IMG/VR virus record: IMGVR_UViG_3300031669_008154
Location: 1 to 50,299 of that record
Source of the DNA: a virus
Length of the DNA stretch: 50,299 nucleotides
Reading direction: 5' to 3' (one strand)
A program made the position numbers and the translations under genes. The notes beneath the pieces were generated by a model. It had not been told where the DNA came from. It saw only the letters and a list, made by a program, of their open reading frames with translations, and did not search any database. Of this stretch, positions 514 through 46,044 are shown piece by piece; the stretch's first letter is position 1; each line of letters begins with the position of its first letter.

Positions 514-1605
514 TCAATTATCTCCTATTTTCAGTGACGACTTAATATTCGGCGCCGACTTGCTGTTGAACAACCCGAAATCGCAGGGGTAATCTATCAC
601 CCTCTTGTTTTTCTTGAACTTCAAGTCTTTCAATGTCGCCAGTGTCTCCCACTCGGACATATCTCCATCCTTCTCCAGTAGGTTGACGATGTCCTCGTAT
701 ACGTCCACTCCTGCCATCAGCACGTCCAGCACTATTCTCTCTTCCTCGGTCTCGGGAGCGTAGAGCAGTTCACCCTCGTCGCTCAAACAGTCAGGCCTAA
801 TGATAATCTTGCCGTCTCCCAGATAACTTCTTGGCTTGCCAGCGTCTATCGAGATGGAGAATGGCTTGCTTATTGCCACCAAGATGTCCACCCTCTTGTC
901 ATACCTGACCTTTTCGATGAAGTATGTGAACCGTGTCTTGTTGATTCTCGACCTAACGCAGGTAATCCGCCAGTCTACCCAAGGCAGGCAGGTTTTCTTG
1001 TCAAGCTCCGATACTAGCTGTGTTGTGCCTATAGTCAGAGAGTCTATGTGTCTTTTCTCCTTGAATATTCCACCCATAGTCTTGTTCATGGGGTTGTGGG
1101 GTTCACGGCTGTAGCAGTATCTCCAAAGTTCGGTGAGGTACAGTATGCTGTTCTTGAGCAGCACAACCCCTTTCTTGGTGACCCATGTATCAGCGGCTTT
1201 CTCTAGAGCCTTGTCGTGTTCCGTGGCCCTGAGACCGATGGCAACCTCCCGCATCTTAGCCAAGTCCTCGTGCAACACTTCCTCATTGAATAAGCCAGCG
1301 TAGAGACCGAACAGTTCTCTCGGTCGCTCGTCACGCAGGAGGCGTTTCCACGGGAAGTAGGTCCCCATGCGGTTTGTTATGTAATTACCAAAAGTGTCCT
1401 TGCCACTTCCCGGCTCTCCGACCGTAATGGCTACACCCCACAGCCCATTGAACAGGTTGTAGAGCTGCCTGGCCCGGTACGCGTCCTCGGGTGACAGAGT
1501 GCTGGGTAGCTTTACACCGACCTCTTCGTCATAACCGGGCGTGGTGTCAAACAGATCCTCGGTCGACTGGGTCGGTTGCTCCCTAATCCTCGTATCCTCT
1601 ACCAC
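514..1605 (-). CDS. FtsK/HerA/Zot-like P-loop ATPase, probable packaging or assembly ATPase
   Basis: 363 aa, probable GTG start. The Walker A loop GEPGSGKDT is at residues 63-71. The segment ILYLTEL (154-160) sits where the family has Walker B, with Thr in place of the usual Asp but Glu kept. It is followed by a run ending in SLTIGTTQ (189-196), the expected polar-Gln sensor strand. This order (P-loop, E-helix, TTQ) is that of the HerA/FtsK/A32/Zot group, which pumps DNA into virions or through membranes. No terminase is present, so this is the best packaging motor candidate. It overlaps the upstream gene by 23 nt. A conjugation-type ATPase is the alternative. Confidence 0.65.
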   Translation of the reverse strand: MVEDTRIREQPTQSTEDLFDTTPGYDEEVGVKLPSTLSPEDAYRARQLYNLFNGLWGVAITVGEPGSGKDTFGNYITNRMGTYFPWKRLLRDERPRELFGLYAGLFNEEVLHEDLAKMREVAIGLRATEHDKALEKAADTWVTKKGVVLLKNSILYLTELWRYCYSREPHNPMNKTMGGIFKEKRHIDSLTIGTTQLVSELDKKTCLPWVDWRITCVRSRINKTRFTYFIEKVRYDKRVDILVAISKPFSISIDAGKPRSYLGDGKIIIRPDCLSDEGELLYAPETEEERIVLDVLMAGVDVYEDIVNLLEKDGDMSEWETLATLKDLKFKKNKRVIDYPCDFGLFNSKSAPNIKSSLKIGDN

Positions 1606-12700: not shown

Positions 12701-15611
12701 GAGATAGCTGATCCCACATCAGTACTCCAGCCGCGGTTATCGCACCATAGTACGGAACCAAGGTCGCCAGTGCCTTCTTGCCGACTTCAGGGTATAGTTC
12801 ATGGGCGACGGTAGCAGGAGCCACTATCTGGTAAACGCCCGACGCAGGTATCCTTATGATGGCTGGCCAATTCTGCATTGATTTCAGAGGACCACCTAAC
12901 CAGTTAGCACCGATACCTAATGCACGGATGAAGGGGTCGGACGAGTACTCCATACTCCCCGCGTAGTAGTCTCTGAAGCTGGCTGCTAGGGCTTCGTCAA
13001 AGTTCTCGGCGTTGCCCCCAGAGTCCACGAAGTCTTGCTGGAGTTGATCGTATTGCCCCATGTCTCGGGTCGCCTGTATTTGCCTATTTACTTTTGTGTC
13101 GATGGTCTCTGGGTCGTGGTGTATCCCGTAACCCACTGCGGTCAGTGTTGTGGTAGTAGCAGGCGGCGTAGCAGAGACAAGGGCACGCTTCATCCCACTC
13201 AGGAACTTCGCAGTGGGCCTAGCAAATCTTCCCAGCTTACCAGAAACCTGCACAGGTGTCATCCCCCATTTCCATGTTTTCCCTAAAACCGTACCTACTC
13301 TGCCGAGAACACGAGCAGCGAGATTGGGAGCCAGCGAGCTGATACCAAGAGTGGCTAAAGCCGTCCCGTAACCTATAACATCCAGATTGGTGGGAGCGAT
13401 GTTCATCCAAAGTGCTCGCAACTGTGCCGCTTCCTCTGGTGTGGTTATCATTTTCTGGGTCTCGCGCGTAGCCCAAGGGGTCATGTAAGGTTGACCTACT
13501 TCGCACTCAGGCATGAATGGTTTGGACGGGGAGCCTAACCACTGCAAAACTCCCTGTAACTTACTTGGTTTCTCAGGTTCCGTTTCCTCGACAGGTGGAG
13601 GCTGACAGCATGACTGCACTACCTCCTCGGCGTTAGGAGTGCCGGTGTTGGACAATAGCTCAATGGCCCCTCCCTCTCCCTTGTCTGCCACGAGACTCGG
13701 AACATCTACATAGTCCTGGTACTGCCACGTGTTGACGTCGCCAAAGATACGACCCACGCTTACTTTTGCATCATAACCAGCGGCTATCGCCTTATCCTTT
13801 GCTGACTCGTCGCTCAAAGCCTGCACTATCACAATCGACCCATCTTTGTTCTTAACCTGATACATTCGAGGGGTGAAATGTGCCTCAATATCACCAGTGC
13901 AGTAGCCTTCAGCACAACCAGCGGCGGTTGCGTCGTCCACGGCCTTCCGTTCCTCGTCAGTGAGTCCGATGAAGGGAGCATCTACCGTTTCAGGTTCCGC
14001 TCCCGCTACCGGCTGTGAAAGACCAGCAAATAAACTCCCAAGTAGGTCGGTGACGGGTACAGTAACAAAGCTACGAGTATAATCAACTAAAACACCCAAC
14101 GCAGCCACCAAACCCTCGTATGTCGCGGCCAGCATGTTCCCCTGAGTGCCTTTAGCTGAACTGTAGGTCGGTAAGTTTTGCAGAGCCGCAACATCCTCTG
14201 GGGACAGGAATGCGACAATACCGTTGCTCAGCCGAATAGGAACACTGCCGGCAACAGGCGGTTGGTAGTCCTCACCAAACAGTAGTTGTGCTATCTTCGG
14301 ATTCGCTGCGTAGTTCATAACAGCCTCAGCGCCGAACAACGGACTATTAGCATAAGCGTTTCTGATTCGTTCAAGAGCTTGGGCTGTGGTGAGTTGCTCC
14401 GTCCCGGTCTGCTTGATACCCTTAACGGTCAACCCGTACATTTCCGCCAATCGTTCAGCCTGAGCTTGGTCGGCGGCGTTAAGTGTCTTGATACCGCGCT
14501 GGGTGTCCAGTTCCCACTGATTGATGGCGATTGTAGGCATCTTCTTATAAGTCACGGTTTCATCGCCTATCACCTTGGTAGCATGGGCAACGCTATATCC
14601 CGCAGCCTCCGCCTTTTGCTGGGCAATATCCTCGCCGTTAACATCGGCGGTGGGGTTATCAATGGCTTGGACCAAGACGTAAGAGCCATCCTTAAGTTTA
14701 ACTTTGAAAGTCTCTATGGTAGCGGGGCAACTCCGACCCGAAGCCTTCTCGGTTTCGGCTCGTGCTAACTCCTGCTCCGTAGCGGGTATGGATATATCGC
14801 TGACTTCCACGGTTTCAAGCATCGCCTGTCTGGCTTTATAGGCAGCTGTCTTCGCTTCATGGGCTAGTTTCCGTGGAAGCTCCTTCGCCTTTCTCTGATA
14901 CTGGTCGCTCCACTTGGGATAAGCGTTCTTGTATATGCGTATGATGTCTGATCTCTCGTAGTCTTTCCCACTCGCTTTGAGTTTTGCTATATTCTTTTGA
15001 ACTTGCTCCTTGGCCTCAGCCAACTCCGCGTCCATCTCGGCTATTTGCTGGTTGTACCACGCTGCGTCAACACCTTCAGGGGCGGTTTTGCCCGCAATGC
15101 TGGCTAAGATGTAGCCCAGCTCGCCCTCACTGGTACGCACCCCGCTCTCGCGGAGGAGTAGTACCAAATCGGCAGAGGAAAACCCCAATCCCTTGAGGTA
15201 ATGGGCTTTCGCCAGGGTGTCTCCGCTTAGTCCGCCACCTCTATCGCCACGGCCACGACCTGTTTCACGGGCAGGCCACAAAAGGGTCGCCACCTCGGAG
15301 GCAGGCATCTTGGTGATATCTACGGTTTCAACACCAGCAGACACTGGAGGGGCGGCAACCACAGTCGCCTCTTGCACAAGGGCAGTAGCTCTCCGCGCTG
15401 GGGTCGTGATACCAGCCCGCCTTCGTTGTGATATGGTAGTGGGGGCTGGTGCTACGACACTGGGAATAGTCGCTACAGTTTCAACGGTAGCAACGGTAGC
15501 GGCAGTAGTCCCGGGCGCTTGCTCTTCGGGAGGTGCTTCCGCCCCCTGTTGTGTCCTAGTGGGAATGTATGATTCCCTGCGACCACGTCTGCGTGAACTG
15601 GCTACAGACAT
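9726..15611 (-). CDS. Giant multidomain protein, 1961 aa, with Ser-Pro tract and internal repeats
   Basis: The first 130 residues are low-complexity and Arg/Thr/Pro-rich. Two copies of a module with the core KDGSxVxVQA lie near residues 305 and 590. Long Ala/Leu helices, possibly membrane-active, fill about 730-1030. An alpha/beta region contains YGTAS and RDFDVDTF (near 1150-1190), vaguely like a nucleotidyltransferase. A Ser-Pro repeat tract spans about 1524-1606. Two modules with WYY, GPPxGAK and SVxPxET follow (about 1640-1745 and 1775-1875). The start overlaps the upstream stop (TAATG). It could be a virion, tape-measure-like or injected protein. One gene takes 12% of the window. Confidence 0.7.
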   Translation of the reverse strand: MSVASSRRRGRRESYIPTRTQQGAEAPPEEQAPGTTAATVATVETVATIPSVVAPAPTTISQRRRAGITTPARRATALVQEATVVAAPPVSAGVETVDITKMPASEVATLLWPARETGRGRGDRGGGLSGDTLAKAHYLKGLGFSSADLVLLLRESGVRTSEGELGYILASIAGKTAPEGVDAAWYNQQIAEMDAELAEAKEQVQKNIAKLKASGKDYERSDIIRIYKNAYPKWSDQYQRKAKELPRKLAHEAKTAAYKARQAMLETVEVSDISIPATEQELARAETEKASGRSCPATIETFKVKLKDGSYVLVQAIDNPTADVNGEDIAQQKAEAAGYSVAHATKVIGDETVTYKKMPTIAINQWELDTQRGIKTLNAADQAQAERLAEMYGLTVKGIKQTGTEQLTTAQALERIRNAYANSPLFGAEAVMNYAANPKIAQLLFGEDYQPPVAGSVPIRLSNGIVAFLSPEDVAALQNLPTYSSAKGTQGNMLAATYEGLVAALGVLVDYTRSFVTVPVTDLLGSLFAGLSQPVAGAEPETVDAPFIGLTDEERKAVDDATAAGCAEGYCTGDIEAHFTPRMYQVKNKDGSIVIVQALSDESAKDKAIAAGYDAKVSVGRIFGDVNTWQYQDYVDVPSLVADKGEGGAIELLSNTGTPNAEEVVQSCCQPPPVEETEPEKPSKLQGVLQWLGSPSKPFMPECEVGQPYMTPWATRETQKMITTPEEAAQLRALWMNIAPTNLDVIGYGTALATLGISSLAPNLAARVLGRVGTVLGKTWKWGMTPVQVSGKLGRFARPTAKFLSGMKRALVSATPPATTTTLTAVGYGIHHDPETIDTKVNRQIQATRDMGQYDQLQQDFVDSGGNAENFDEALAASFRDYYAGSMEYSSDPFIRALGIGANWLGGPLKSMQNWPAIIRIPASGVYQIVAPATVAHELYPEVGKKALATLVPYYGAITAAGVLMWDQLSPLEKTAVVGFTLLPGLEPVLTPKMANFVRTVAKKTGRPIPPYSSATILENMKPWYAVELPEGVVAVGLKIGKYPIIGFSGNGLTIGTLGVTLPKGKLAGAKPLTTTELKMLSKFLKPKDRALLKTLIKEAESLTALKSKIKGDFKYMGTENVSPLGEEALFAVLAREGGGRVTRLYGTASMRPQLAKLLREGGKLSKKDIRVMKAMKARDFDVDTFLSNAQAEALAAKIAKMWKTTERGKTVKVAVSGNTGLKTAVTINGEAALDLHPYGFSYWPKTEGNMGLGVSYPEPDVLSAVRVGKPLRNAGLFSDLKIGDRPVGYVYVMSLAESGKRKALELWEFNLNTGKLVMRTARLKDIADGYRAMYQLRGKAAAEQYLLTRVNKAQELRDAGLIPTKDWVKFKQDMVDLGKTVEKSINKGEWGTTIYMVEPSSGVAPLPSLTIPSMSLTGAIVWPSTVRVSLVDAISESLKISPSASQYLASTLLASPELAKSVSKVSPDGVSPSEVQSLSSTISSVLKVSPSQARAVADSLSVSLSRAASRASIVSPSRKASPTLSVPPSVSPSTSPSASPSISPSVSGVSPSPSKSKSPSPSISPSPSPSPSLSPSLSPSPSPSPSPSPSPSPSPSPSPSPSPSPPTIPPSARPTPPPLLLPSKRGVSGGRVPAGSIAWAQGSLRRGSKLVPQWYYIPPPYNQSDAIHLQGPPTGAKHTHSVVPRETVQIIGKAKAVVPRLVTKDMGWVDLRIIDGSRIEFASGGLKTDVGTRDPSTTLGMSMKPGGGVVAPKSRVVAASPAGSAIPQGSLTWAEGTTGKGISRVQRVRWYYLPSPYTGEPIPLSGPPHGAKNIDSVDPYETLQVLGRSRKGLRDADVNLDWATVKIRKGGVEVDYKGTPTESTPSGTTSRPGIPEPKPSESEVAAQLEAIEQEVVEPGATEADGLSLEMEEEPLVEPLPPPEPKTRVGLPKTKPRRKALSEWDRITTLRGFNMYTGEGL
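10795..11042 (-). repeat. Ser-Pro coding repeat inside the giant gene
   Basis: Degenerate repeats of about 6 and 12 bp encode roughly 80 residues of Ser-Pro dipeptides with scattered Ala, Leu, Ile and Lys. The DNA codons vary (TCG, AGT, TCA, AGC), so selection acts on the peptide. It reads as an extended linker between the body and the WYY modules and is a likely site of length change. Confidence 0.8.
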
Positions 15612-15902: not shown

Positions 15903-15931
15903 AGAATAACATAATGGTTGTGTTTTGTCAA
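15903..15931 (-). promoter_or_regulatory. Sigma-70 promoter, upstream member of a tandem pair
   Basis: TTGACA (15931-15926), 17 bp, TATTCT (15908-15903) on the minus strand. Its transcript would run through the hairpin at 15839-15864 and the second promoter before reaching the zinc-ribbon gene. Confidence 0.65.
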
Positions 15932-18710: not shown

Positions 18711-18837
18711 TTTGTTCCTCCTCGCCTGCATCCAGCAAGCATTTCAGCATTAGCTTTTTGAGTTCTTCTTTACCCCAACCTGTTTTTTGTTCTAATCGCT
18801 CCAATAATAACTTCCATGCTTTTAAGTAAATATTCAT
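18694..18837 (-). CDS. Duplicated 47-aa helical microprotein, copy A
   Basis: ATG at 18837 directly after a TAA (TAAATG). The product contains NIYLKAWKLLLERLEQKTGW and KKLMLKCLLDAGEE. It is nearly identical in protein to the 44-aa gene at 38069-38203, although the DNA differs at most third positions. This copy is AT-rich (TTA, AAA codons), the other is not. Function unknown; amphipathic helices suggest a small protein-binding factor. Confidence 0.7.
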   Translation of the reverse strand: MNIYLKAWKLLLERLEQKTGWGKEELKKLMLKCLLDAGEEEQNANRQ

Positions 18838-22605: not shown

Positions 22606-25600
22606 CTATGTTAGCATAGACGACATAGACTTGTCAACGCCTTGCAGGGCAATCTTTCTCATCTCTCCCCACCGTCTACCTACTTTGAAGTCTACCTCAA
22701 TCGGGACAGACAAGTGAGCAACACCTGTCATGATGTGCTTGACCCAGAGCAGGAACCCGCCAAGATACTCCGTGTCATCTGAAACCTCAAACAGGAGACT
22801 GTCGTGTATCTGGAGTAGCGTCTTAACATCTCGCCAGGGGGTGTTCGGCAATCCCTGCCATATCTCGACCATTGCTGCCTTAATTATACCCTGTGCCGAA
22901 TTCTTGGAGATGAGACCCTCGGAAGCAAAGGCGTGGCGATCATCGTCCACAGAAAGCGTGTACATTTCCTCTGGGGACAGCACTTCGCTTCGGAGTATGG
23001 TGAGAGGGCGATGGTTCTTTAGAATGTAACAAGGCCAAAGTGTGGACGGCTTGCCATGCCAGTAGGTTCTCGTCTTTCCCTCACCGATCCAAGCGCAAAG
23101 CCCGAGGCTCTCAGCCAATCTAACTGTATCTTCTAGCAGCTCACGTGAGGCACTCGTTATCTGCCATCTATGATTGTCCGTAACCCCGTCGGCACTAGTG
23201 TAGCCGTCTAGAAAGGCTCGTCGTCGCTCACGATTTAGTGTGAACACAAGGAAGGGAATACGCTTTTCCTTAGCCCGCCTCCGTTCCATGCCCAAAGACA
23301 GCCACAGATCCTGACCAGCCTTGGTGCCACCCCCGATATTGAAATTGCCTTTTTCACCGTAGTAGTACCAGTGATAGCCTTGTGGTCTAGCCCTATTCCG
23401 TCCACCAATCCTTTTAGAATCCAGCCACTCACAGAATCGTAGCCCGTCTTCCGCCTCCTTGTACCCGAATGCAATACTCCAGCAACACTGATAGCGGCTG
23501 CCGTGACCAGACAGCCAGCCGTCGCCTACGAATCTGCCAGCCCAAAACCAGTCCTCTGGATCGCCAATAGCCTGACCCCAGTCCGTGGAGAAGTCCTGCG
23601 ATAGGGGTTCATCATCTCTCATCTCAAGTACGTTCTTCCAGACAGGCCAAGGCCCTGTTTGCACTAGCAACTTGTGATTAGTGTCGCAGTCAAACGCACG
23701 ACCATCGCTCAAGTGCAGCCTAACTCTAGGGTGGACACCCATAGACAGCCTTGTCGCCTTCGCCCACTTCTCACCCGTCCACACCTCTGTACCGCTCTTA
23801 AACTCCCCGATAGGCAACCAACCACCCCTGGTCGTGACCCTAGTATCCGTAGGCAAGCATGCTGTAACCGCAAAATTTGCCGCCATCCTCGCTCCTGCTT
23901 CCTGAACAGACCTTATCGGGCAGCTCACCTCGGGAATGTAGCGTATCCTCCCGAACATGTCCTGCACATACCCATGCCGACGAGCCTGTGCCAGTTGCGT
24001 TCGTTGATACATCCTGATCTCCGGGTACAGCTTATAGTATTCCTCGATGAACTGGCCACATCGCTCCTCGTCCCAAGGCTCAATGTCCACAGGTTCGCCC
24101 TCCATTTTGAGGTCGGCGATATATTCGTTGATTTGGGTAGATAGACCATAAGCACCAATCATGTAGATAATTCCAAAACCAGCTCTTTTACACGGGTAAC
24201 GATATTTGTCCTTACCAGCCTCTTCGTAGGAGACATTGAACAGCCTAGACGCTGTGGTAGTGTGCGGGTCTCTACCAGACAAGAATAGCTCTATCAACCC
24301 CTTGCAGTTAGCCAAATGTGCCTGTGTTCTTAGCTCAATTTGTTTCAGATCTCCCTCAAGCAGCAGCTTGCCACCGGGGGCAATAAACCCGTTCTTAATC
24401 GCTTTAGCTTCCTTGCTCCGGGTAGGTATATTTTGCAAATTAGCACCAGTCCCGTCCTCCGCCTTAGCCGAACTCAATCTCCCGGTCTCTACCCTGGTCG
24501 TCTTCAACACCGTATGGATACGAGGTACGCCATCCTGGTTCGGGCGAGCGGAATAAATCATATTGTCAGCATATGTTGACTTGAGCTTCTGAATTCCACG
24601 ATACCGTATTACACCCTCAGCCACGAGGTGTCCAGTCTTCTTCAATTCGGCATCGTCGGTGGAGATTAGCCCAGTGGTCGTGAACTTGGTAGGCTTGAAA
24701 CCTAACTCTTCATAAACTACCGTCGCCACTTGCTGCGAACTGGCGGGGTTGAACGAATGCCCTACCATTGCGGCCAACTCCGCGGCTCTTAAGCGCATAC
24801 GGTGATCGTAGTCCTCGGACAGTCGGCGGTAGTGGTCGAGGTCTACAGCCATGCCGTTAGCCATCATAGCATTCACCATCGGCAAGATACCGAGGTCGAT
24901 GTACTGGACGAAGTTGATACCAAGCTTGTCAATAATCTTCATGAGTTTGTGGTGGACACGAAGCGTGACATCCGAGTCGCGAATTGAGTATTCTATAGCT
25001 TGGTCTCTAGGAATGTCCGCTAGCGAAGACTCAGGCATGGCTCCCAGCACGGATTCCACCACAGCCCTCTCCTCGGCGGGGATGCTATGCCAGCGAGCCC
25101 ATAGATCAAGGTCGTAGTTGCTCTCCATGTCGTTGAGCATTTTGTTCATCTTCCGTGATATGGGCCATGGTTTCCTCTGCCGAGTGATAATCTCACCTTT
25201 CTTGTTGTCCCATTTAGTTTCCTCTATCAGTGGCGGGTCTGGCCACTCCTGTTTGAGGGCTTTGAATAGATACTCCATTGATAGCTTTTGCTGGCCGGGG
25301 CGGACTATCTCACGATAGGACTGCATCGGGACTCCGCATAGTCGCCGCCCCAGTTCCTTCAAACCCTGTACTTCGCCCACCAGATAAGCTAAAGTCATTG
25401 AGTCTGAAAATCCATCGTCCCGTAGCTTGATAAACTGTATGTCATATAGGTAGTTATGAACGATCGCCGTCGCAGGCCAGTCTGTAAAGTCAATGCGACC
25501 GTTATGGTTTTCAGGTATCGGAACAAACCATCCGGTGCCGGGATAAGTGCTCACCTGATAGCTCCAAGGTTTACCTCGGCACTGCTCGGTGTCCAGTCCG

Positions 25601-26328
25601 AACTCTCTGCTATCACGGGCTTCATCCCTCATTCGCTTTAGCAGTTGAGGGGTATCGGCAACACGGTATTCCGGATCGGGGTACTCGTCCCTGACATGGT
25701 AAGCCCGCCAAGTGGAACCGCCGACCAGTCCCTGTAGAGTTTGAAACGCCTCGCTGCATTGTCGCAGTTTGGAGGTATCGTGTAAAGCAGCAGCAGGGTG
25801 GTACATGGGTAGGATGATACGGCCATTCAGCCAGATGGGCTTTCCGTTGAGCAGCTCCATAGAACCGCAGTCGGGCCCTAGGAAGTGTTCAGTGGCAGGT
25901 TTTCCCATTGCCACTATAATGTAAGGGTCAACGGCATCCACTTCCAAGTCCAGCCACTTGGAACACGCTCGTATTTCGGCGGGTGATGGCTGGCGATTGC
26001 TTGGGGTTAAGCACTTTACGAGATTGGTGATTGCCACGCTGTCGCGGGGAACACGAGCCTGAAACAAGAGGGAATCGAGATATTCTCCCGCTGCCCCGAT
26101 GAAGGGGTGGCCTCGTTGATCCTCGGCTTTACCAGGATTCTGACCGACCAACATTATGTCAACACTAGGGTCGATATTCTCCCCGGGAACGGGAGCTCTA
26201 CACTTCTCGCCCAAGTTGCAGTCCTTACACTGTCGGACTAAGGCGCCGGGGAATGGTAAAGTCTCAAGGTCGGGCAAGGCTGGTGGTGGCCCGTAGTAGG
26301 ATCGGTATCTTCCCGTTCCGATTGGCAT
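22606..26328 (-). CDS. polA: Uracil-DNA glycosylase / DNA polymerase I fusion with intein
   Basis: 1240 aa from the ATG at 26328, chosen because it overlaps the upstream TAA as TAATG. Residues about 30-215 are a family-4-type UDG: Fe-S cysteines 34, 37, 106 and 122, motif GQNPGKAEDQRGHPFIG, and HPAAAL. A DnaQ-like exonuclease follows with DTE, HNYLYD and YSIRDSD intact. The polymerase keeps DLKQIELR, KRAGFGIIYMIG and IHDSLLFEV (HDS where most have HDE). A 320-residue intein interrupts it before SAQGIIK. After splicing, about 920 residues would form a replicative or repair polymerase with built-in uracil sensing or removal. Confidence 0.93.
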   Translation of the reverse strand: MPIGTGRYRSYYGPPPALPDLETLPFPGALVRQCKDCNLGEKCRAPVPGENIDPSVDIMLVGQNPGKAEDQRGHPFIGAAGEYLDSLLFQARVPRDSVAITNLVKCLTPSNRQPSPAEIRACSKWLDLEVDAVDPYIIVAMGKPATEHFLGPDCGSMELLNGKPIWLNGRIILPMYHPAAALHDTSKLRQCSEAFQTLQGLVGGSTWRAYHVRDEYPDPEYRVADTPQLLKRMRDEARDSREFGLDTEQCRGKPWSYQVSTYPGTGWFVPIPENHNGRIDFTDWPATAIVHNYLYDIQFIKLRDDGFSDSMTLAYLVGEVQGLKELGRRLCGVPMQSYREIVRPGQQKLSMEYLFKALKQEWPDPPLIEETKWDNKKGEIITRQRKPWPISRKMNKMLNDMESNYDLDLWARWHSIPAEERAVVESVLGAMPESSLADIPRDQAIEYSIRDSDVTLRVHHKLMKIIDKLGINFVQYIDLGILPMVNAMMANGMAVDLDHYRRLSEDYDHRMRLRAAELAAMVGHSFNPASSQQVATVVYEELGFKPTKFTTTGLISTDDAELKKTGHLVAEGVIRYRGIQKLKSTYADNMIYSARPNQDGVPRIHTVLKTTRVETGRLSSAKAEDGTGANLQNIPTRSKEAKAIKNGFIAPGGKLLLEGDLKQIELRTQAHLANCKGLIELFLSGRDPHTTTASRLFNVSYEEAGKDKYRYPCKRAGFGIIYMIGAYGLSTQINEYIADLKMEGEPVDIEPWDEERCGQFIEEYYKLYPEIRMYQRTQLAQARRHGYVQDMFGRIRYIPEVSCPIRSVQEAGARMAANFAVTACLPTDTRVTTRGGWLPIGEFKSGTEVWTGEKWAKATRLSMGVHPRVRLHLSDGRAFDCDTNHKLLVQTGPWPVWKNVLEMRDDEPLSQDFSTDWGQAIGDPEDWFWAGRFVGDGWLSGHGSRYQCCWSIAFGYKEAEDGLRFCEWLDSKRIGGRNRARPQGYHWYYYGEKGNFNIGGGTKAGQDLWLSLGMERRRAKEKRIPFLVFTLNRERRRAFLDGYTSADGVTDNHRWQITSASRELLEDTVRLAESLGLCAWIGEGKTRTYWHGKPSTLWPCYILKNHRPLTILRSEVLSPEEMYTLSVDDDRHAFASEGLISKNSAQGIIKAAMVEIWQGLPNTPWRDVKTLLQIHDSLLFEVSDDTEYLGGFLLWVKHIMTGVAHLSVPIEVDFKVGRRWGEMRKIALQGVDKSMSSMLT
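22608..22637 (-). promoter_or_regulatory. Extended -10 promoter inside polA 3' end
   Basis: TTGACA (22637-22632), 18 bp, TAACAT (22613-22608), preceded by TGC (extended -10). It overlaps the last codons of polA and fires into the RHH/HNH cassette. Confidence 0.6.
22900..23859 (-). other. Intein in DNA polymerase I, 320 aa, LAGLIDADG type
   Basis: It starts at Cys (TGC, 23859-23857) in the context VTA/CLPTDTRV and ends at Asn (AAT, 22902-22900) before Ser (SKN/SAQ). Two dodecapeptide endonuclease motifs are visible: WAGRFVGDGWL and FLDGYTSADGV. Splicing would give NFAVTA-SAQGIIKAAM, matching the conserved motif that is usually NTPIQGSAADIIK. Block B has DTNH rather than TxxH, and the penultimate residue is Lys, not His. 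It sits in the most conserved part of the polymerase, as expected of a homing intein. Confidence 0.92.
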
Positions 26329-26570
26329 TATGAGACTACCCTTCCCTGCAAAGGACAACCATTGTGGCACTGCACATAGATGCGGTCTAAATCTCCGTCG
26401 CTCGGGCGACAGAAAATCATCGGACACAGGACAGATAGTTCATGCACAGCAACCCAATCAACGGAAGAGGACGGATCATCCTCGTCGGGCAATTCGCCCT
26501 CACCGCCCCTCTCCTCCAAGGGCAAATTGATGCCAGCTTTGAAGTGTTCCCTGTTGCGCTTATCGCTCAT
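26328..26570 (-). CDS. Hypothetical protein, 80 aa
   Basis: Acidic middle (EERGGEGELPDEDDPSSS) and a C-terminal part with three Cys that may bind metal (CPMIFC, CHNGCP). It ends in the TAA that overlaps the polA ATG, so it is translated with polA. GGAAGGAGG precedes the start. No family recognised. Confidence 0.6.
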   Translation of the reverse strand: MSDKRNREHFKAGINLPLEERGGEGELPDEDDPSSSVDWVAVHELSVLCPMIFCRPSDGDLDRIYVQCHNGCPLQGRVVS

Positions 26571-26589
26571 TGTGCTCCTCCTTCCGACG

Positions 26590-29121: not shown

Positions 29122-29310
29122 CTACTCATCCTTCTTCGACTCATCCTGTTTGGCCTTCTCCTGCAGGCGGACACCCACGTATAACCCAAAGAAAAGGGCT
29201 ATACCGAGGATAACAGATCCCCACCAGTACGGGGTCTTGGCAGCGAGTACGATAAGTCCGTACAGGATGCCCACTGCGGAGACGATAGTTGCTAATAGAG
29301 CCATCTTCAT
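29122..29310 (-). CDS. Two-TM microprotein, 62 aa
   Basis: Two hydrophobic helices separated by AKTPYWWGS and a charged tail (EKAKQDESKKDE). It shares the TPYWW turn with the next gene upstream, so the two are tandem paralogues. Strong AAAGGAGGA. Overlaps its neighbour by 4 nt. Candidate holin-, channel- or envelope-type protein, but nothing proves this. Confidence 0.65.
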   Translation of the reverse strand: MKMALLATIVSAVGILYGLIVLAAKTPYWWGSVILGIALFFGLYVGVRLQEKAKQDESKKDE

Positions 29311-29492
29311 TTTTGTTCCTCCTTTCCCTTGTTGCTACTTCGATATGAAACGTACGCCCCTAGCGACACAAACACAATGAACAAGGGCAACATCCACCAG
29401 TAGGGTGTACCCTGCACCACTGTGTGTATCCCGTAGGACGCACCTCCCGCAAAGCACAAGCCAAATACGACCCGAAATAATGCCGTCTTCAT
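29307..29492 (-). CDS. Two-TM microprotein, 61 aa
   Basis: Same design as the 62-aa gene downstream: helix, QGTPYWWML turn, helix, then a polar tail SNKGKEEQK. It overlaps both neighbours by 4 nt. One of six two-TM microproteins in this window, the others lying at 30242-30711 and 36655-37130. Confidence 0.65.
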   Translation of the reverse strand: MKTALFRVVFGLCFAGGASYGIHTVVQGTPYWWMLPLFIVFVSLGAYVSYRSSNKGKEEQK

Positions 29493-29908
29493 TTTTGCTC
29501 CTCCTTTCTTATTTCATTGGCGTCTTCCAACGCTCTTTGCCAGTTGGCTCGCTTACTCATGATACGCTGTGCTACTCTCAAGTCTACAGGGCGACTGGCA
29601 CAGTCCAGGACATGGGCAACGATACTCTGTGCTACGACGCCACGATTAAGGTAATAGGCCACCGCAGAGGCAAAGTCGTGAAGGGAGCGGTCGCCGCGAA
29701 CCGAGTTACATTTTCGGCAACTGGTTACTAGGTTTCTGGATACGTTCTTGCCACCCTGGGACACGGGAACTATGTGGTCAAGAGATAGAGTGACCCCATC
29801 ATCCTCAAGGCTAGAGCCGCACCACACACAGGCAAGGCCATCACGCATGTAGATAGCAAGACGCCTCTCCCGTCTTATCCACTTTGCACCGTTCCAGTTC
29901 TTACTCAT
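29489..29908 (-). CDS. HNH endonuclease, 139 aa
   Basis: Start chosen at 29908 (GAGAGG upstream), since longer frames run into the promoter. The core is complete: CVWCGS, then LSLDHIVPVSQGGKNVSRNL and SCRKCNSVRGDRS. This compact HNH is close to the McrA-like stand-alone nucleases common in phages. It may be a homing or packaging-associated nuclease; there is no terminase to support packaging. Confidence 0.88.
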   Translation of the reverse strand: MSKNWNGAKWIRRERRLAIYMRDGLACVWCGSSLEDDGVTLSLDHIVPVSQGGKNVSRNLVTSCRKCNSVRGDRSLHDFASAVAYYLNRGVVAQSIVAHVLDCASRPVDLRVAQRIMSKRANWQRALEDANEIRKEEQK

Positions 29909-29945
29909 CTTGACCTCTCTTGCTCCTCCTTTTTCCTCATTTACC

Positions 29946-30245
29946 CTATAATAACACATATCCCACAACATTGTCAAGCGACCTTGGAACTTTCCCACTC
30001 GTGGGAAGACCAGACTCTGAAAAATTTTCTACCGGGAGATTGCCAACAACAGTCTCGTCATCCCCTCGAAGCAGACGATTATACGCATTGTGGGCCTCAC
30101 TCCTGCTCTTCTTTTCACTCTTGCCGATAGCCAGACTCAGCACCGTTGCCAGCATATCGGGGTCGCGACTGCATATCGCATGTAGTTTGGGAAAATCACA
30201 GGGGAAGGGTAGGTCTAAAGTTTTCAGTATCTCCTGTTTGTTCAT
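29946..30245 (-). CDS. Hypothetical protein, 99 aa
   Basis: Mostly helical in the first 60 residues; its last codons overlap the promoter at 29948-29977. It overlaps the previous gene by 4 nt. No motif recognised. Confidence 0.5.
   Translation of the reverse strand: MNKQEILKTLDLPFPCDFPKLHAICSRDPDMLATVLSLAIGKSEKKSRSEAHNAYNRLLRGDDETVVGNLPVENFSESGLPTSGKVPRSLDNVVGYVLL
29948..29977 (-). promoter_or_regulatory. Sigma-70 promoter with upstream palindrome
   Basis: TTGACA (29977-29972), 18 bp, TATTAT (29953-29948). The perfect palindrome TTCCCACTCGTGGGAA (29992-30007) sits just upstream, a likely operator. It drives the HNH gene and the TPYWW pair. Confidence 0.65.
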
Positions 30246-30469
30246 TGCTCCTCCTTAACTTCTCTAGCAACCCTCTCGCCCTTCACTCGTATCTCTATCA
30301 AGGTCATGTAGACGGCGAGGACGCCAAGTAGCACGCCAGCACACAGCAACATCGTGTCGTGCCACACTCCTACCACATAACCCGCGCCGATTATGAGACC
30401 CAAGGCGAGGGCGAAACTGATGATGGCTCTTCTGATTAGGCTCTTCAGTTTCCCTGTTAGCTCCTTCAT
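30242..30469 (-). CDS. Two-TM microprotein, 75 aa
   Basis: Basic N terminus, two hydrophobic helices (about 15-33 and 38-60) and a charged tail ending VKEEQ. Overlaps both neighbours by 4 nt. Same architecture as the other microproteins of this operon. Confidence 0.65.
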   Translation of the reverse strand: MKELTGKLKSLIRRAIISFALALGLIIGAGYVVGVWHDTMLLCAGVLLGVLAVYMTLIEIRVKGERVAREVKEEQ

Positions 30470-30711
30470 TTTGGCTCCTCCTTGCCGACCATCGACTCAT
30501 AGTACCGTTCCCTTTCAATATGTTTGTATCTGCTGACCAACAATGCGATTACCGTTATTTGGAACACTACACCGATAACGATAAATGCAACCAAGTTCGT
30601 CAGTCCAGGATAGCCAAAAGCGAGGTAAGACACCCCCCAACTAGCACAGGAAAGAGCCACAATTAACCAAGTAAGCGTTCGACGTTCAGTCTTTCTCTCC
30701 CATTTACTCAT
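30466..30711 (-). CDS. Two-TM microprotein, 81 aa
   Basis: Two hydrophobic helices (about 14-32 and 38-58) with a charged C-terminal tail ending EEPK. First gene after the promoter at 30784. No family recognised. Confidence 0.65.
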   Translation of the reverse strand: MSKWERKTERRTLTWLIVALSCASWGVSYLAFGYPGLTNLVAFIVIGVVFQITVIALLVSRYKHIERERYYESMVGKEEPK

Positions 30712-30754
30712 TTCTTTGCTCCTCCTTTTTCTCTTTTCTTGAACCTACAACCAC

Positions 30755-38068: not shown

Positions 38069-38203
38069 TTATGCCACCTCCTCACCTGCGTCAAGCAGAC
38101 ACTTGAGCATCAGCTTCTTTATCTCCTCCTTACCCCATCCCGTTTTCTGCTCTAGACGCACCAGTAGTAGTTTCCAAGCAATCAGATATATGTTCTTACT
38201 CAT
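38069..38203 (-). CDS. Duplicated 44-aa helical microprotein, copy B
   Basis: ATG at 38203. It contains NIYLIAWKLLLVRLEQKTGW and KKLMLKCLLDAGEE, almost the same protein as 18694-18837. Many silent differences between the copies show that the peptide is under selection. Function unknown. Confidence 0.7.
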   Translation of the reverse strand: MSKNIYLIAWKLLLVRLEQKTGWGKEEIKKLMLKCLLDAGEEVA

Positions 38204-39873: not shown

Positions 39874-42603
39874 TCAAACTAACGGGTCAGGCACAGTGGC
39901 CAAACTTCCCCTATATCGGGCACGAAACCAGGCGGGGGCGAATGTGCCATAGCGCTTCATAAACCAGAGGATCGAATTGTCGACCACCAATACCTCGCTT
40001 TTGTCCTGTGCTGAGTTTCCCACAATGGCTGTGCAACCATTACGGCGCACAACGATAGTACCCAAGTCAGTAGATACACACCACGTCTTACCCTGATACG
40101 GGACAACCTTAACATTAGCTTTAGGAATATCAACAAACTGCTTGTCTGTGAACTGAACCTCATACTGACCTCGTCTTTCATTTATGCTGCTCCTGTAATC
40201 GGCCAACACAAGCAGATACTGCACCCTGTCGGCTAGTTCCCTATCCGATGTATAGTAGGCTCCCGAGGCTTCCGTCTTCCACGTGCCATCCCCTGCCATA
40301 AGACCTCGCAATAGAGCTCGCAACTCACGCTTACGACACTGTTGTAAGACCCATAGCGGTATAGTCTTCTCCGCCCCTCTGGTCCAGAAAGGCGTAAAGT
40401 GCCTCGTGGTAGGCTGACGCACTTGGGGTACACCTAAGAACAGCCTACGAATCCTGTCTGCGGCGTACCCACATATATCCCACCGAATGATGTCCCCATT
40501 GCGTGTGTATTGCTTGCCGCCATTACAAGACATGGTGGTTCCGTTGTAATCCCTGACGGACATTGACGCTGATATACCTAGATAATCCAACGTCTCAACT
40601 ATCTGCTTGCAAACGTCGGGTTTGGATGTACTCTGCATTATCATTATCCTGTTCTTGTTCCCAGCAATGCAGCCATCGCTAATTATCAGTCCCATAAGGA
40701 AGTACCATCTGTCCCTCACGTCCATCTTGCATGCGAGAGAGCCTAGACGCTCACGCTGACAATGGCCAGAGACCAGAACCTTAAATCTGACAGGCAAGCT
40801 ACTAGCTCGACACTTGCTCAATCCCGACAGCTTGATGCCCAAATTACGAACTTTGAGCTGTTCCACATCCCAGTTGCGGTATCTATATCTCAGACTCCTC
40901 CCCGCGTTATACGGATGAATGACCAACTCATGGTCCCCACTGACTAGCACGTCAAGCGATTTGCCGGTCACGCTGATCATGCTATGGTCAGTGTCCCACA
41001 CGTGGACACCCTCAACACGACTCAAGGAAAGACCACCAGCACGTGTACTCCCAGCCTTGAAGTTATGGGGCAATAATGAATACACCATGTCGCCCTGTCG
41101 CATCTCTTCTGGCCCCTTCCACCCGTCGAAGGTCAGTATCTGAGTGTCCCAGGACAAACATCTACTTGCGCGGCCACACGATTGCACCAACGTCTCCATA
41201 GCCATGTAGCTCGACCACTCCTTATCGTCCTCCTGACGGGCTCTCATGACTGGGTCACTCGTGTCTCCGTAGGGAATCTTCCCAATCACGATATACTGTG
41301 GCAGCTCGGGCATCGGAAAATCATACCCAGTCGTAACAGACGGAGACACCAGCACAATCGGTGGTGAAGAGTCCTTGAACATATTCACAGCGTCCACCAC
41401 GTCGCGGGTACTGTGAGTAATCATGATATCCTTGAAACGCGACCGTGACATGAGTAGCTTGGCACGCTCATAACTGACGGTGAAGATGAGACCTTTGCGG
41501 TCAAGGCGGCGTTGTATAATCTGGTCGATGCGTGATACCCACACCCTGGTCTCTGCGTCGCTGGTGCGGTAGTTAATACGGGCGGTGTCAACATGGACAA
41601 TGGGAGTATTCTCAGGTGGAAACGCACTTTCCGCCTCTATCCAGTAGCGTCCCTCCTCGGGTACGCCGAGATAGTCTAAAGTTCGGTGGGACAGGATCGC
41701 CGACATGAGGACGATTTTAGGGACTTCGGCGGGATGGAATAAATCGTCGGCGTGATGGGAGACCCACTTGGGGACGAAACGACAACCGTTCAAGGTCCAT
41801 TGCACAATCCACTGGTCGTCGAGGTTGGTGAGCAGGTTGAGTTTGGAAAGCAATCCGTTAGCACGACGGGCAGCACGAACTAAGGCAGAAGGTAAGACAC
41901 CACGTTCCCTGCGAATCGACCTAACCTCGGCACTCAACTTGGAAGCCTCCCCTTCGGCGGACTCTTTGGCCGACTCCGCCCATAGACGCCACCCTTGCCA
42001 TTGACTGGGACCAGGTGAGGGGAACATAACGCCGAGGGGCTGTATATCCTGTCGGGCTATATATACGGTGAGAAATCCTTCCATAGCTCCAAAGGCAAGA
42101 TGGGCTTCGTCACAAACGAGTAGCGATACCGGACCAAGGCCGTCGGCGTAGTTGGTCTGAGCCAGCCAGTAGGCGTAGTTGGTGATTACGAGGTTGGACT
42201 GACGGGCACGATCCAGTTGGATGCGGTAAGGACACTCGTCGCGGAGGTCGCAGACCAGGCCGAGGTTGCAGACGCCGTCTTCGGCTGTGGTGTTGGGTTC
42301 CAAAAGACAGGGGAAGTTGTTGCGGCCCTTAGCCTCAACCGCTCCGAGCACGGCGCTGTCTGCCATATATTGTCGCATCAATCCTTTCGTTGCGGTGAGG
42401 ATGACGGTTCGGGCGCCAGTCATTTTAGCTAATAGTAAGGCTACCAAGGACTTGCCGCCACCGGTTGGCAGGGACACGCCGAGGTACTGGGACTGAGAAT
42501 AATAAAATTCCAACCCCTCCAAAAGAAGGTCGCGTTGCCCCGGGTACCAGCCCGAGAATTTACCGGCCTCAAGAAGATCCGACGGTGATGCTCCAGTTGT
42601 CAT
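39874..42603 (-). CDS. XPD/DinG-like Fe-S superfamily 2 helicase with intein
   Basis: 909 aa. Walker A SLPTGGGKS (44-52), four cysteines that fit the Fe-S cluster domain (99, 112, 118, 124), DEAH box at 165-168 and motif VI QSCGRASR before the intein. Without the 382-residue intein, about 527 residues remain, the size of a small XPD/DinG. Such enzymes unwind 5'-3' and can clear R-loops or forks. No ribosome site precedes the ATG; the AT-rich tail with TATACT 7 nt before ATG suggests a leaderless message. Upstream lie four GTATAC palindromes. Confidence 0.9.
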   Translation of the reverse strand: MTTGASPSDLLEAGKFSGWYPGQRDLLLEGLEFYYSQSQYLGVSLPTGGGKSLVALLLAKMTGARTVILTATKGLMRQYMADSAVLGAVEAKGRNNFPCLLEPNTTAEDGVCNLGLVCDLRDECPYRIQLDRARQSNLVITNYAYWLAQTNYADGLGPVSLLVCDEAHLAFGAMEGFLTVYIARQDIQPLGVMFPSPGPSQWQGWRLWAESAKESAEGEASKLSAEVRSIRRERGVLPSALVRAARRANGLLSKLNLLTNLDDQWIVQWTLNGCRFVPKWVSHHADDLFHPAEVPKIVLMSAILSHRTLDYLGVPEEGRYWIEAESAFPPENTPIVHVDTARINYRTSDAETRVWVSRIDQIIQRRLDRKGLIFTVSYERAKLLMSRSRFKDIMITHSTRDVVDAVNMFKDSSPPIVLVSPSVTTGYDFPMPELPQYIVIGKIPYGDTSDPVMRARQEDDKEWSSYMAMETLVQSCGRASRCLSWDTQILTFDGWKGPEEMRQGDMVYSLLPHNFKAGSTRAGGLSLSRVEGVHVWDTDHSMISVTGKSLDVLVSGDHELVIHPYNAGRSLRYRYRNWDVEQLKVRNLGIKLSGLSKCRASSLPVRFKVLVSGHCQRERLGSLACKMDVRDRWYFLMGLIISDGCIAGNKNRIMIMQSTSKPDVCKQIVETLDYLGISASMSVRDYNGTTMSCNGGKQYTRNGDIIRWDICGYAADRIRRLFLGVPQVRQPTTRHFTPFWTRGAEKTIPLWVLQQCRKRELRALLRGLMAGDGTWKTEASGAYYTSDRELADRVQYLLVLADYRSSINERRGQYEVQFTDKQFVDIPKANVKVVPYQGKTWCVSTDLGTIVVRRNGCTAIVGNSAQDKSEVLVVDNSILWFMKRYGTFAPAWFRARYRGSLATVPDPLV
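40015..41160 (-). other. Intein in helicase, 382 aa, LAGLIDADG type
   Basis: It begins at Cys (TGT, 41160-41158) after ASR and ends at Asn (AAC, 40017-40015) before Ser (VGN/SAQ). Endonuclease motifs FLMGLIISDGCI and LLRGLMAGDGTW are present. Block B is SGDH. The penultimate residue is Gly, not His. Splicing would restore QSCGRASR-SAQDKSEVLVVD, the normal helicase motif VI. The insertion is in an ATPase motif, as homing inteins favour. Confidence 0.92.
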
Positions 42604-44719: not shown

Positions 44720-44917
44720 TCACGCCGGTACAGCTGACGACGTAGACCTAAAATCATCAGGGTTACTCCTCTTCCTCAAGGGATTCAGCGTACGTCTACG
44801 ACAGACTGTACACTGCCATTGTTGCTTCATGCGACCGGATCGGTTAATGGTGACTCTGCCTGCCTTGACGACAGGATTGCCACACTCGGGGCAAAGATAT
44901 CGTGCACTACTCGCCAT
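44720..44917 (-). CDS. Zinc-ribbon microprotein, 65 aa
   Basis: CPECGNPVVKAGR and MKQQWQCTVCRRRT give a Cys4 ribbon of the same family as 15611, 16773 and 19483. Basic. It overlaps the upstream TM gene by 11 nt. Confidence 0.65.
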   Translation of the reverse strand: MASSARYLCPECGNPVVKAGRVTINRSGRMKQQWQCTVCRRRTLNPLRKRSNPDDFRSTSSAVPA

Positions 44918-45410
44918 TAGCTTGTCCCAAAGCCAGAGGTGCCTCCGATTTCTCTTCTCTCCTATTCTCCAGTAACAACAATATCAGGACACCGATAAAA
45001 CCTAAGAGGAACCAGAACAAGTTCCATAGGCTTCGCCCTTTCTTCCTGAGATACCAAACACCCACGAAGAGGAATATGCCAACACTAACTATCCCAGCTG
45101 TAGGGTAGTAGATACCGTCCCACGTACTTGAGGCTTGAGCATACTGGTCAAAGGCATAACTGTATGCATCATAATCCATCAGGTACTCCTCGTACTGAGC
45201 ATCACTTCCCTCAAAGTAACCAGAGGCAACGTAAGATGACCACTCTTCTAGGTTCACCGTAGCAGTATCTAAGTTACTGGCAGGGGTATCTAGGACAGCC
45301 ATATTCAACAGGAAGGCAATAGAGAGACAAGCCGCAAAGCTCACCAACCAAGACCCTAATATGAAAGACCAGTTTAGGTGCCTGTCACGCCATCTTTTTC
45401 TAGCTACCAT
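44907..45410 (-). CDS. Membrane protein with external acidic loop, 167 aa
   Basis: N-terminal TM (about 15-37), a Tyr/Asp/Ser-rich acidic loop of about 60 residues (YEEYLMDYDAYSYAFDQYAQ), two more TM helices (about 103-150) and a charged tail. It is the first gene after the long structured leader at 45442-45660. No family recognised. A weak GGGGCG precedes the start, about 30 nt after the pseudoknotted RNA. Confidence 0.65.
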   Translation of the reverse strand: MVARKRWRDRHLNWSFILGSWLVSFAACLSIAFLLNMAVLDTPASNLDTATVNLEEWSSYVASGYFEGSDAQYEEYLMDYDAYSYAFDQYAQASSTWDGIYYPTAGIVSVGIFLFVGVWYLRKKGRSLWNLFWFLLGFIGVLILLLLENRREEKSEAPLALGQANGE

Positions 45411-45441
45411 CTTAGTCGCCCCATGCGCGTTTCAGTATATA

Positions 45442-45550
45442 GGGCAAGGTGTGACCCGAATTCCGCACAGGGCCAAGCACATCGGACGGGAGGAGATAGT
45501 GGCTGAAAAAAATTAAAAGACCACAGCCCTGTTCTCCCGACACCTTGCCC
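45442..45550 (-). ncRNA. Predicted pseudoknotted structured RNA
   Basis: On the minus strand, outer arms GGGCAAGGTGT/ACACCTTGCCC (11 perfect pairs) enclose CGGGAG/CTCCCG (6) and ACAGGGC/GCCCTGT (7), which cross each other and so form an H-type pseudoknot. A smaller GTGG/CCAC hairpin with an A/U-rich loop sits inside. All arms are exact. It lies in the long leader of the 167-aa membrane gene, downstream of a TTGACA/TATGAT promoter. It could be a riboswitch-like leader or a separate RNA. No known class was recognised. Confidence 0.55.
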
Positions 45551-45621
45551 GCAAATCTTCTTTCTCTCATTCGCTGTTTTTAGCTTTTTTGCTTACGAGT
45601 AGCCTTTATTAAAACTTTGTC

Positions 45622-45662
45622 GGAAGCACCCCAGCGGAGGAGCACTCAACCAGGGTGCTTCC
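45622..45662 (-). promoter_or_regulatory. 10-bp perfect hairpin at start of leader transcript
   Basis: GGAAGCACCC and GGGTGCTTCC pair perfectly around a 21-nt loop. It begins about 20 nt after the predicted start of the minus transcript. It may cap the same structured RNA as 45442-45550. Confidence 0.6.
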
Positions 45663-45687
45663 AATTGCGAGAGTTATAGTAGCTTAT

Positions 45688-45716
45688 ATCATATCATATC
45701 AAGAGCCGTTTGTCAA
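45688..45716 (-). promoter_or_regulatory. Sigma-70 promoter for the leader and membrane gene
   Basis: TTGACA (45716-45711), 17 bp, TATGAT (45693-45688) on the minus strand. Three ATATC repeats lie at 45686-45700. It is divergent from the plus promoter at 45778. Confidence 0.7.
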
Positions 45717-45728
45717 TAGCCCCCGGGG

Positions 45729-45790
45729 CAGACTAAAATTTTCTCCAGGGGGATTTTTCACCACGATTGCGTGGGACTTGACAAGATTTT
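45729..45790 (+). repeat. Promoter box, copy 2 of an inverted pair
   Basis: Inverted copy of 30774-30825, sharing AAAATTTTCTCC, GATTTTTCA, CCAC-N6-GTGG (45761-45774) and the TTGACAA box. Confidence 0.75.
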
Positions 45791-45806
45791 AGGGGGGTGC
45801 TATACT
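45778..45806 (+). promoter_or_regulatory. Sigma-70 promoter of the plus-strand operon
   Basis: TTGACA (45778-45783), 17 bp, TATACT (45801-45806), followed by AAGGAGGAG and the first ATG of the operon at 45847. Confidence 0.85.
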
Positions 45807-45846
45807 AATATACTATGATAAGTAAGTTAGGAAAAGGAGGAGCAAA

Positions 45847-46044
45847 ATGGGATATAGCTGTGATCAAGGAATCACCAAAGGAAAGTGTTCCCGGTGTAAG
45901 GTAGTGTGGTACTGGAAGACCGGTAAGCGAAAACTCAAGGATGCGCGGTGTCCAACATGCGGGGGGAGACTGACAGCGACCACACACCTGATGAAAAGGT
46001 TCCCCTGGAAGAAGTATGATCCGAAGGAGGTACCCAAGGCATGA
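45847..46044 (+). CDS. Zinc-binding protein, 65 aa
   Basis: CSRCKVVWYW and CPTCGGRL form a Cys4 ribbon; ends in basic MKRFPWKKYD. Strong AAAAGGAGGAG. First gene of the only plus-strand operon. It overlaps the next gene by 4 nt (ATGA). Confidence 0.7.
   Translation: MGYSCDQGITKGKCSRCKVVWYWKTGKRKLKDARCPTCGGRLTATTHLMKRFPWKKYDPKEVPKA

Follow-up and report, generated by a model that had tools for sequence, protein, structure and literature searches.

A conserved leader hairpin in an uncultured phage whose loop complements Shine-Dalgarno sequences of the same phage

We analyzed a virus record of the IMG/VR type with a length of 50,299 bases, referred to here as the window, around a gap of 436 bp (45411-45846) that is flanked by ORFs at 44907-45410 on the minus strand and 45847-46044 on the plus strand. 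Two divergent promoters lie within the gap. The leftward promoter is of the sigma-70 type, TTGACA-17-TATGAT (45716-45688, minus strand), and agrees with the consensus at 11 of 12 positions, while the rightward promoter at 45778 (TTGACA-17-TATACT, plus strand) is also a strong consensus match. Both the gap and the leftward promoter were found exactly where a preliminary description of this locus had placed them. Based on the promoter, transcription of the leftward operon is predicted to start near 45681. The first long gene after the leader (44907-45410, minus strand) encodes a predicted membrane protein of 167 aa with hydrophobic segments near residues 14-43 and 100-150. Its Shine-Dalgarno sequence is weak (-4.7 kcal/mol), and homologues of the protein were found neither in IMG/VR nor in phage records nor among the records for the relatives described below. 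A zinc-ribbon gene (44720-44917) is located on the same strand.

The gap contains no terminator-like site, and no G+C-rich stem within it is immediately followed by a U run as in intrinsic terminators or attenuators. An independent RNA, one of two options raised earlier, is thus unlikely because nothing resembling a terminator precedes the membrane-protein gene. The other option, a structured 5' leader transcribed from the leftward promoter, is supported, its hairpin showing compensatory changes in a homologue. Our results therefore support the gap as the folded 5' leader of the leftward-operon mRNA and not as a free-standing RNA. A promoter module is duplicated in this genome, with copies at 45754-45806 (plus strand) and 30810-30756 (minus strand), and is also found in the relative L011 around 9192. 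The module (TTTTTCAC[G]CCACGATTG[C/G]GTGGGACTTGACA; 67 bp at 84% identity), which has GGAGGAGCA ribosome sites downstream, carries a small inverted repeat, CCAC..GTGG, just 5' of the -35 box and is perhaps an operator of co-regulated genes. Distant parts of the genome additionally share a 103-bp direct repeat of 75% identity (38077-38179 and 18717-18819).

About 20 nt past the predicted transcription start, the leader forms a hairpin (45622-45662, minus strand). Its 10 exact pairs (45622-45631 with 45653-45662), extended further by wobble pairs, are those reported before. The minimum free energy is -30.8 kcal/mol (z -6.0), and 10-bp hairpins this tight occur twice in the window and in 1 of 200 shuffled gaps. 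Stable hairpins near predicted starts are also seen in the leaders after the minus-strand promoters at 15931 and 5314, e.g. GATGCACCGACTCAGGTTGGTGCATTC, with loops unrelated to that of the leader hairpin.

Relatives were sought by scanning with the helicase that is encoded 3 kb downstream of the leader. For L003/L011 the helicase identity to the window is 90%, but the contig stops short of the leader region and was of no use for comparison. For L012/L013 it is 69%, and L013, an uncultured phage contig, covers the leader region and was the only informative relative found. When the helicase was compared with GTDB genomes, only distant archaeal helicases were recovered. LAGLIDADG homing-endonuclease domains are located inside the window helicase (39874-42603, minus strand) and on the C-terminal side of a polymerase ORF (22606-26427, minus strand) which encodes a uracil-DNA glycosylase (UDG) domain fused N-terminally to a family A DNA polymerase. 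Both insertions are probable inteins, and the helicases of L003 and L013 are without the helicase insert.

In L013, a homologous hairpin (905-946, plus strand) comes after a promoter (TTGACAAACCGC...TTGATATGATAT), and a homologue of the zinc-ribbon gene (66% protein identity over 47 residues, E 1e-20) adjoins the hairpin on its downstream side. The promoter common to both genomes reads TTGACAAAC[G/C]GC..TTGATATGATAT. Comparing the arms of the window hairpin (GGAAGCACCC/GGGTGCTTCC) with those of L013 (CAAGACACCC/GGGTGTCTTG), 4 of the 10 pairs are changed on both sides in a compensatory manner and none is broken, whereas control registers slid by 1-3 columns yield at most one double change. The check for compensatory changes in a homologue, as proposed earlier, thus came out in favor of the hairpin. 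In the loop, 10 of the 12 letters of the segment UGCUCCYYCGCU are kept between the two genomes. A covariance model of the hairpin, searched against the window and six related loci, recovered the two copies with E values near 1e-11 to 1e-10 and a next-best match at E 4.4. The reverse strands of the copies match the model weakly since the hairpin is an inverted repeat. Judged from this comparison, the 10-bp hairpin is a real conserved RNA element and the best-supported element of the leader, its conservation being known from two genomes and well supported.

A start codon with a Shine-Dalgarno sequence on the opposite strand of the hairpin was considered and rejected, as that strand has no promoter ahead of it in the window and the spacing is poor; in L013, the frame of the equivalent reading overlaps a better gene. 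The divergent gene adjoining the hairpin in L013 (500-811, minus strand) is unlike the divergent gene of the window, and its product resembles, by eye, an ADP-ribosyltransferase or 2'-phosphotransferase.

No further contigs with the leader region were found in IMG/VR using the loop motif, the promoter plus stem core, the zinc-ribbon protein or the UDG-polymerase protein for scanning. In IMG/VR, DNA patterns made from the arms of the pseudoknot, from the loop of the hairpin and from the promoter together with the stem core returned chance matches except for L013's contig, nearly all of them within genes of unrelated phages. Searching phages and plasmids with the 280-nt leader likewise gave short chance matches only. 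In Rfam 15, the window had no match at the gathering threshold and a permissive search of the region produced only chance-level matches, so the earlier statement that the structure belongs to no known class holds for Rfam.

The second structured portion of the leader is a folded domain of 109 nt (45442-45550, minus strand) closed by an 11-bp stem (45442-45452 with 45540-45550). It holds stems of 6 bp (45487-45492 with 45534-45539) and 7 bp (45467-45473 with 45526-45532) whose arms cross, and all three stems are exact, in line with the preliminary description. The minimum free energy of the domain is -44.9 kcal/mol versus -33.7 kcal/mol for shuffles (z -3.3), with none of 200 shuffles being as stable. 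The arrangement had been called rare by chance. This is true for the 11-bp stem, which is the only exact stem of at least 11 bp with a span of up to 110 nt in the window and has a counterpart in 1 of 200 gap shuffles, for the tight 10-bp hairpin and for crossing within the 87-nt loop of the outer stem (5 of 1000 shuffles). It is not true for crossing stems alone, since the window contains 170 pairs of crossing 6/7-bp stems, which amounts to about 1.5 in every 436 nt, and at least one such pair is seen in 125 of 200 shuffled gaps. Further, the minimum-energy fold predicted for the domain lacks the 7-bp crossing stem, and forcing a nested fold to hold it costs about 7 kcal/mol compared with 1.7 kcal/mol for the 6-bp stem. 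As a stable fold is reached without the 7-bp stem, modeling points to a strongly structured domain in which a pseudoknot is possible but unproven.

Neither the domain nor the membrane-protein gene is present in the corresponding gap of L013. Based on this comparison, the whole segment therefore appears to have been inserted or lost between the two phages. Aligning the insert junction globally added no information. No homologue of the domain was found in the records of the relatives, in phages or in plasmids. Absence from L013, together with the abundance of crossing stems and the fold that forms without one of them, means that the H-type pseudoknot proposed earlier was not borne out. An HDV-like ribozyme topology was also considered and rejected; there is no Rfam match, and inspection by eye showed no C-N-R-A ahead of the second crossing arm.

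The domain may be read as a pseudoknotted cis-regulator of the membrane-protein gene, either riboswitch-like or bound by a protein. Its unusual stability, its unique closing stem and the infrequency of crossing arms inside that loop are all consistent with such a role, as are the weak Shine-Dalgarno sequence of the gene and the short distance to its start codon, which lies 31 nt past the outer stem. Pseudoknotted translational operators do exist in phages, T4 gene 32 being an example with a pseudoknot in the leader, as proposed here (PMC535899). However, the T4 pseudoknot comprises about 28 nt, is followed by UUAAA repeats and is controlled by the product of the downstream gene, a single-stranded DNA-binding protein (PMC535899), whereas the downstream gene here encodes a membrane protein. 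The energetic penalty of the 7-bp stem, the lack of any homologue and the lack of a described family for such a regulator, even in the permissive Rfam search, argue against this reading. In addition, a switch in which the 7-bp stem would alternate with the ribosome site of the membrane-protein gene was tried and performed no better than chance (70 of 500 shuffles). We thus regard a pseudoknotted cis-regulator as doubtful. A coding role of the domain has even less in its favor. A 52-aa ORF (45412-45570, minus strand) spans the domain in full, its stop codon lying 1 nt ahead of the next ATG (TAA-G-ATG), a junction that would suit translational coupling of a small gene with the membrane-protein gene. 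Its presence qualifies the earlier claim that the gap is free of genes, although no coding signal was detected. The codon score of -2.75 bits resembles off-frame sequence (off-frame tiles: mean -4.8, 39% as high; real tiles: mean +6.0, 4.8% as low), a Shine-Dalgarno sequence is absent (-0.1 kcal/mol) in contrast to the strong ones on most genes here, and phage records hold no relative. Given the low codon score and the missing Shine-Dalgarno sequence, the ORF is probably not a gene, and we consider translational coupling of this kind very unlikely.

The most telling feature of the gap was missing from the preliminary description. The loop segment UGCUCCUCC of the conserved hairpin (45636-45644, minus strand) is the exact complement of an extended Shine-Dalgarno sequence, GGAGGAGCA, which occurs six times as a ribosome-binding sequence ahead of five or six phage genes. 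Candidate targets are found on the minus strand at 26573-26581 (gene 26328-26570, just upstream of the UDG-polymerase gene, with a match of 10 nt to the loop complement), 29496-29504 (gene 29307-29492), 30246-30254 (gene 29946-30245) and 30717-30725 (gene 30466-30711), and on the plus strand at 45836-45844 (divergent gene 45847-46044). The remaining occurrence at 29921-29929 (minus strand) lies upstream of an HNH endonuclease gene starting at about 29908, with long spacing to the start. On the minus strand, UGCUCCUCC itself is present only in the hairpin loop and opposite the Shine-Dalgarno sequence of gene 45847, the latter copy being located upstream of the leftward promoter. With the hairpin's own opposite strand excluded, a 9-nt match to at least 5 genes was obtained for 0.10% of shuffled loops and 0.14% of natural 21-mers from the transcribed strand, for a complementarity that was noticed post hoc and from two genomes. 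Only two hairpins on that strand with stems of at least 7 bp, including the leader hairpin, show a 9-nt match to any initiation region. As a general GGAGGARCA style is common to the ribosome sites of this phage, the match of one loop to one variant is less remarkable than a match of nine free letters would be.

A comparable match exists in L013, where gene 13806 has the ribosome site GAGGGAGCA, to which the loop UGCUCCCUC is exactly complementary (2.2% for any match by shuffling). Window gene 26570 has its orthologue in this gene (13806-14000; 34% identity, E 2e-8), and both are located just before the UDG-polymerase gene. Loops and orthologous ribosome sites each differ at two letters between the genomes, with each site matching its own genome's loop at both positions. 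For these orthologous targets, calculated pairing with the own loop is stronger than cross pairing (-23.2 vs -13.9 and -19.0 vs -16.2 kcal/mol). The co-change concerns both differing positions in one orthologous target from two genomes, and a second GGAGCA gene of L013 (11949) deviates from it, showing no own-loop advantage (-16.1 kcal/mol with its own loop vs -17.2 kcal/mol with the other). In a simplified calculation, pairing with matching targets (-18.7 to -23.2 kcal/mol) outweighs the 5.3 to 7.4 kcal/mol estimated for opening the inner loop. Thus, a C-rich loop complementary to ribosome sites of putative targets, as expected of an anti-Shine-Dalgarno element, is found in both the window and L013.

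Other explanations of the hairpin need to be weighed against trans pairing. The hairpin is highly stable and lies near the 5' end, and it could be a plain stabilizer that protects the operon mRNA against end-dependent decay, the loop match being coincidental. In Bacillus subtilis and E. coli, 5' hairpins are able to stabilize long stretches of mRNA downstream of them, with bla carrying an added 5' hairpin and aprE as examples (PMC3997798), and some other leaders of this phage, namely those of promoters 15931 and 5314, also start with hairpins. However, a stabilizer has no need of a conserved loop sequence, yet the leader-hairpin loop has been kept while the stem changed, and the roughly 15-20 unpaired nucleotides ahead of the hairpin would weaken protection of the 5' end. 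Taken together, we see a pure stabilizer as possible but somewhat unlikely. The hairpin, placed right behind a phage promoter and heading a long operon, also recalls putL of HK022, which lies just past an early phage promoter and whose nascent RNA binds RNA polymerase and acts over at least 10 kb (PMC9378689), so an antiterminator of the put type, modifying RNA polymerase for this long operon, might be envisaged. Put RNAs are about 70 nt long and consist of two stem-loops (PMC9378689), whereas one conserved hairpin and no adjacent pair of stem-loops was found in the roughly 70 nt after the promoter here, which makes this reading quite improbable. That the inverted repeats function as DNA, in the form of an operator or a cruciform, seems the least credible explanation. 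Although the space between divergent promoters, where these repeats are found, is a usual place for regulator sites, the conserved loop is asymmetric, the repeat has a 21-nt spacer and is itself transcribed, and the match between loop and Shine-Dalgarno sequences is sensible only in RNA.

An anti-Shine-Dalgarno leader hairpin acting in trans is the best lead that the sequence data offer, albeit an unproven one. We tentatively propose a leader of two parts, a reading that we hold to be plausible though short of probable. The first part would be the conserved hairpin about 20 nt into the leftward-operon transcript, whose stem keeps its pairing while bases change and whose pyrimidine-rich loop is retained. 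This loop most likely acts through base pairing of UGCUCCUCC with GGAGGAGCA of other phage genes. Because the two are exactly complementary, leader RNA made from the strong leftward promoter would block ribosome binding in trans on mRNAs carrying GGAGGAGCA. The second part would be the lineage-specific folded segment closed by the 11-bp stem, which accompanies the membrane-protein gene in that gene's 5' UTR and is probably a local element for translation or stability, possibly with a pseudoknot. Pairing in trans in the cell, repression as its outcome and any function of the folded part are what we infer from these features.

The trans-pairing idea is plausible since Shine-Dalgarno blocking by C-rich loops is an established mechanism of Gram-positive small RNAs, with UCCC-motif loops acting in this way in RNAIII, RsaE, SprD, FsrA and LhrC (PMC4132741), and since phage-derived regulatory RNAs are known (PMC12197685). 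As in these small RNAs, the pyrimidine-rich loop described here is complementary to the ribosome sites of several mRNAs, and the L013 loop itself contains UCCC. Unlike them, the loop belongs to a phage mRNA, in whose 5' leader it lies, and is predicted to target genes of the phage itself. A more far-reaching version, in which the leader doubles as a trans regulator of a regulon of the phage's own genes, turns down their translation as the leftward operon starts and has a loop that co-evolves with the Shine-Dalgarno sequences, is more speculative and, in our estimation, rather unlikely as stated. The candidate regulon would include the gene just before the DNA polymerase and divergent gene 45847.

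Independent of mechanism, our analysis describes a leader hairpin that is conserved in uncultured phages of a little-known group and leaves the pseudoknot advertised for this locus without support. If the trans-pairing proposal is true, a single hairpin in an mRNA leader would allow a phage to time its gene expression by silencing a set of its own genes via a shared extended ribosome-binding sequence.
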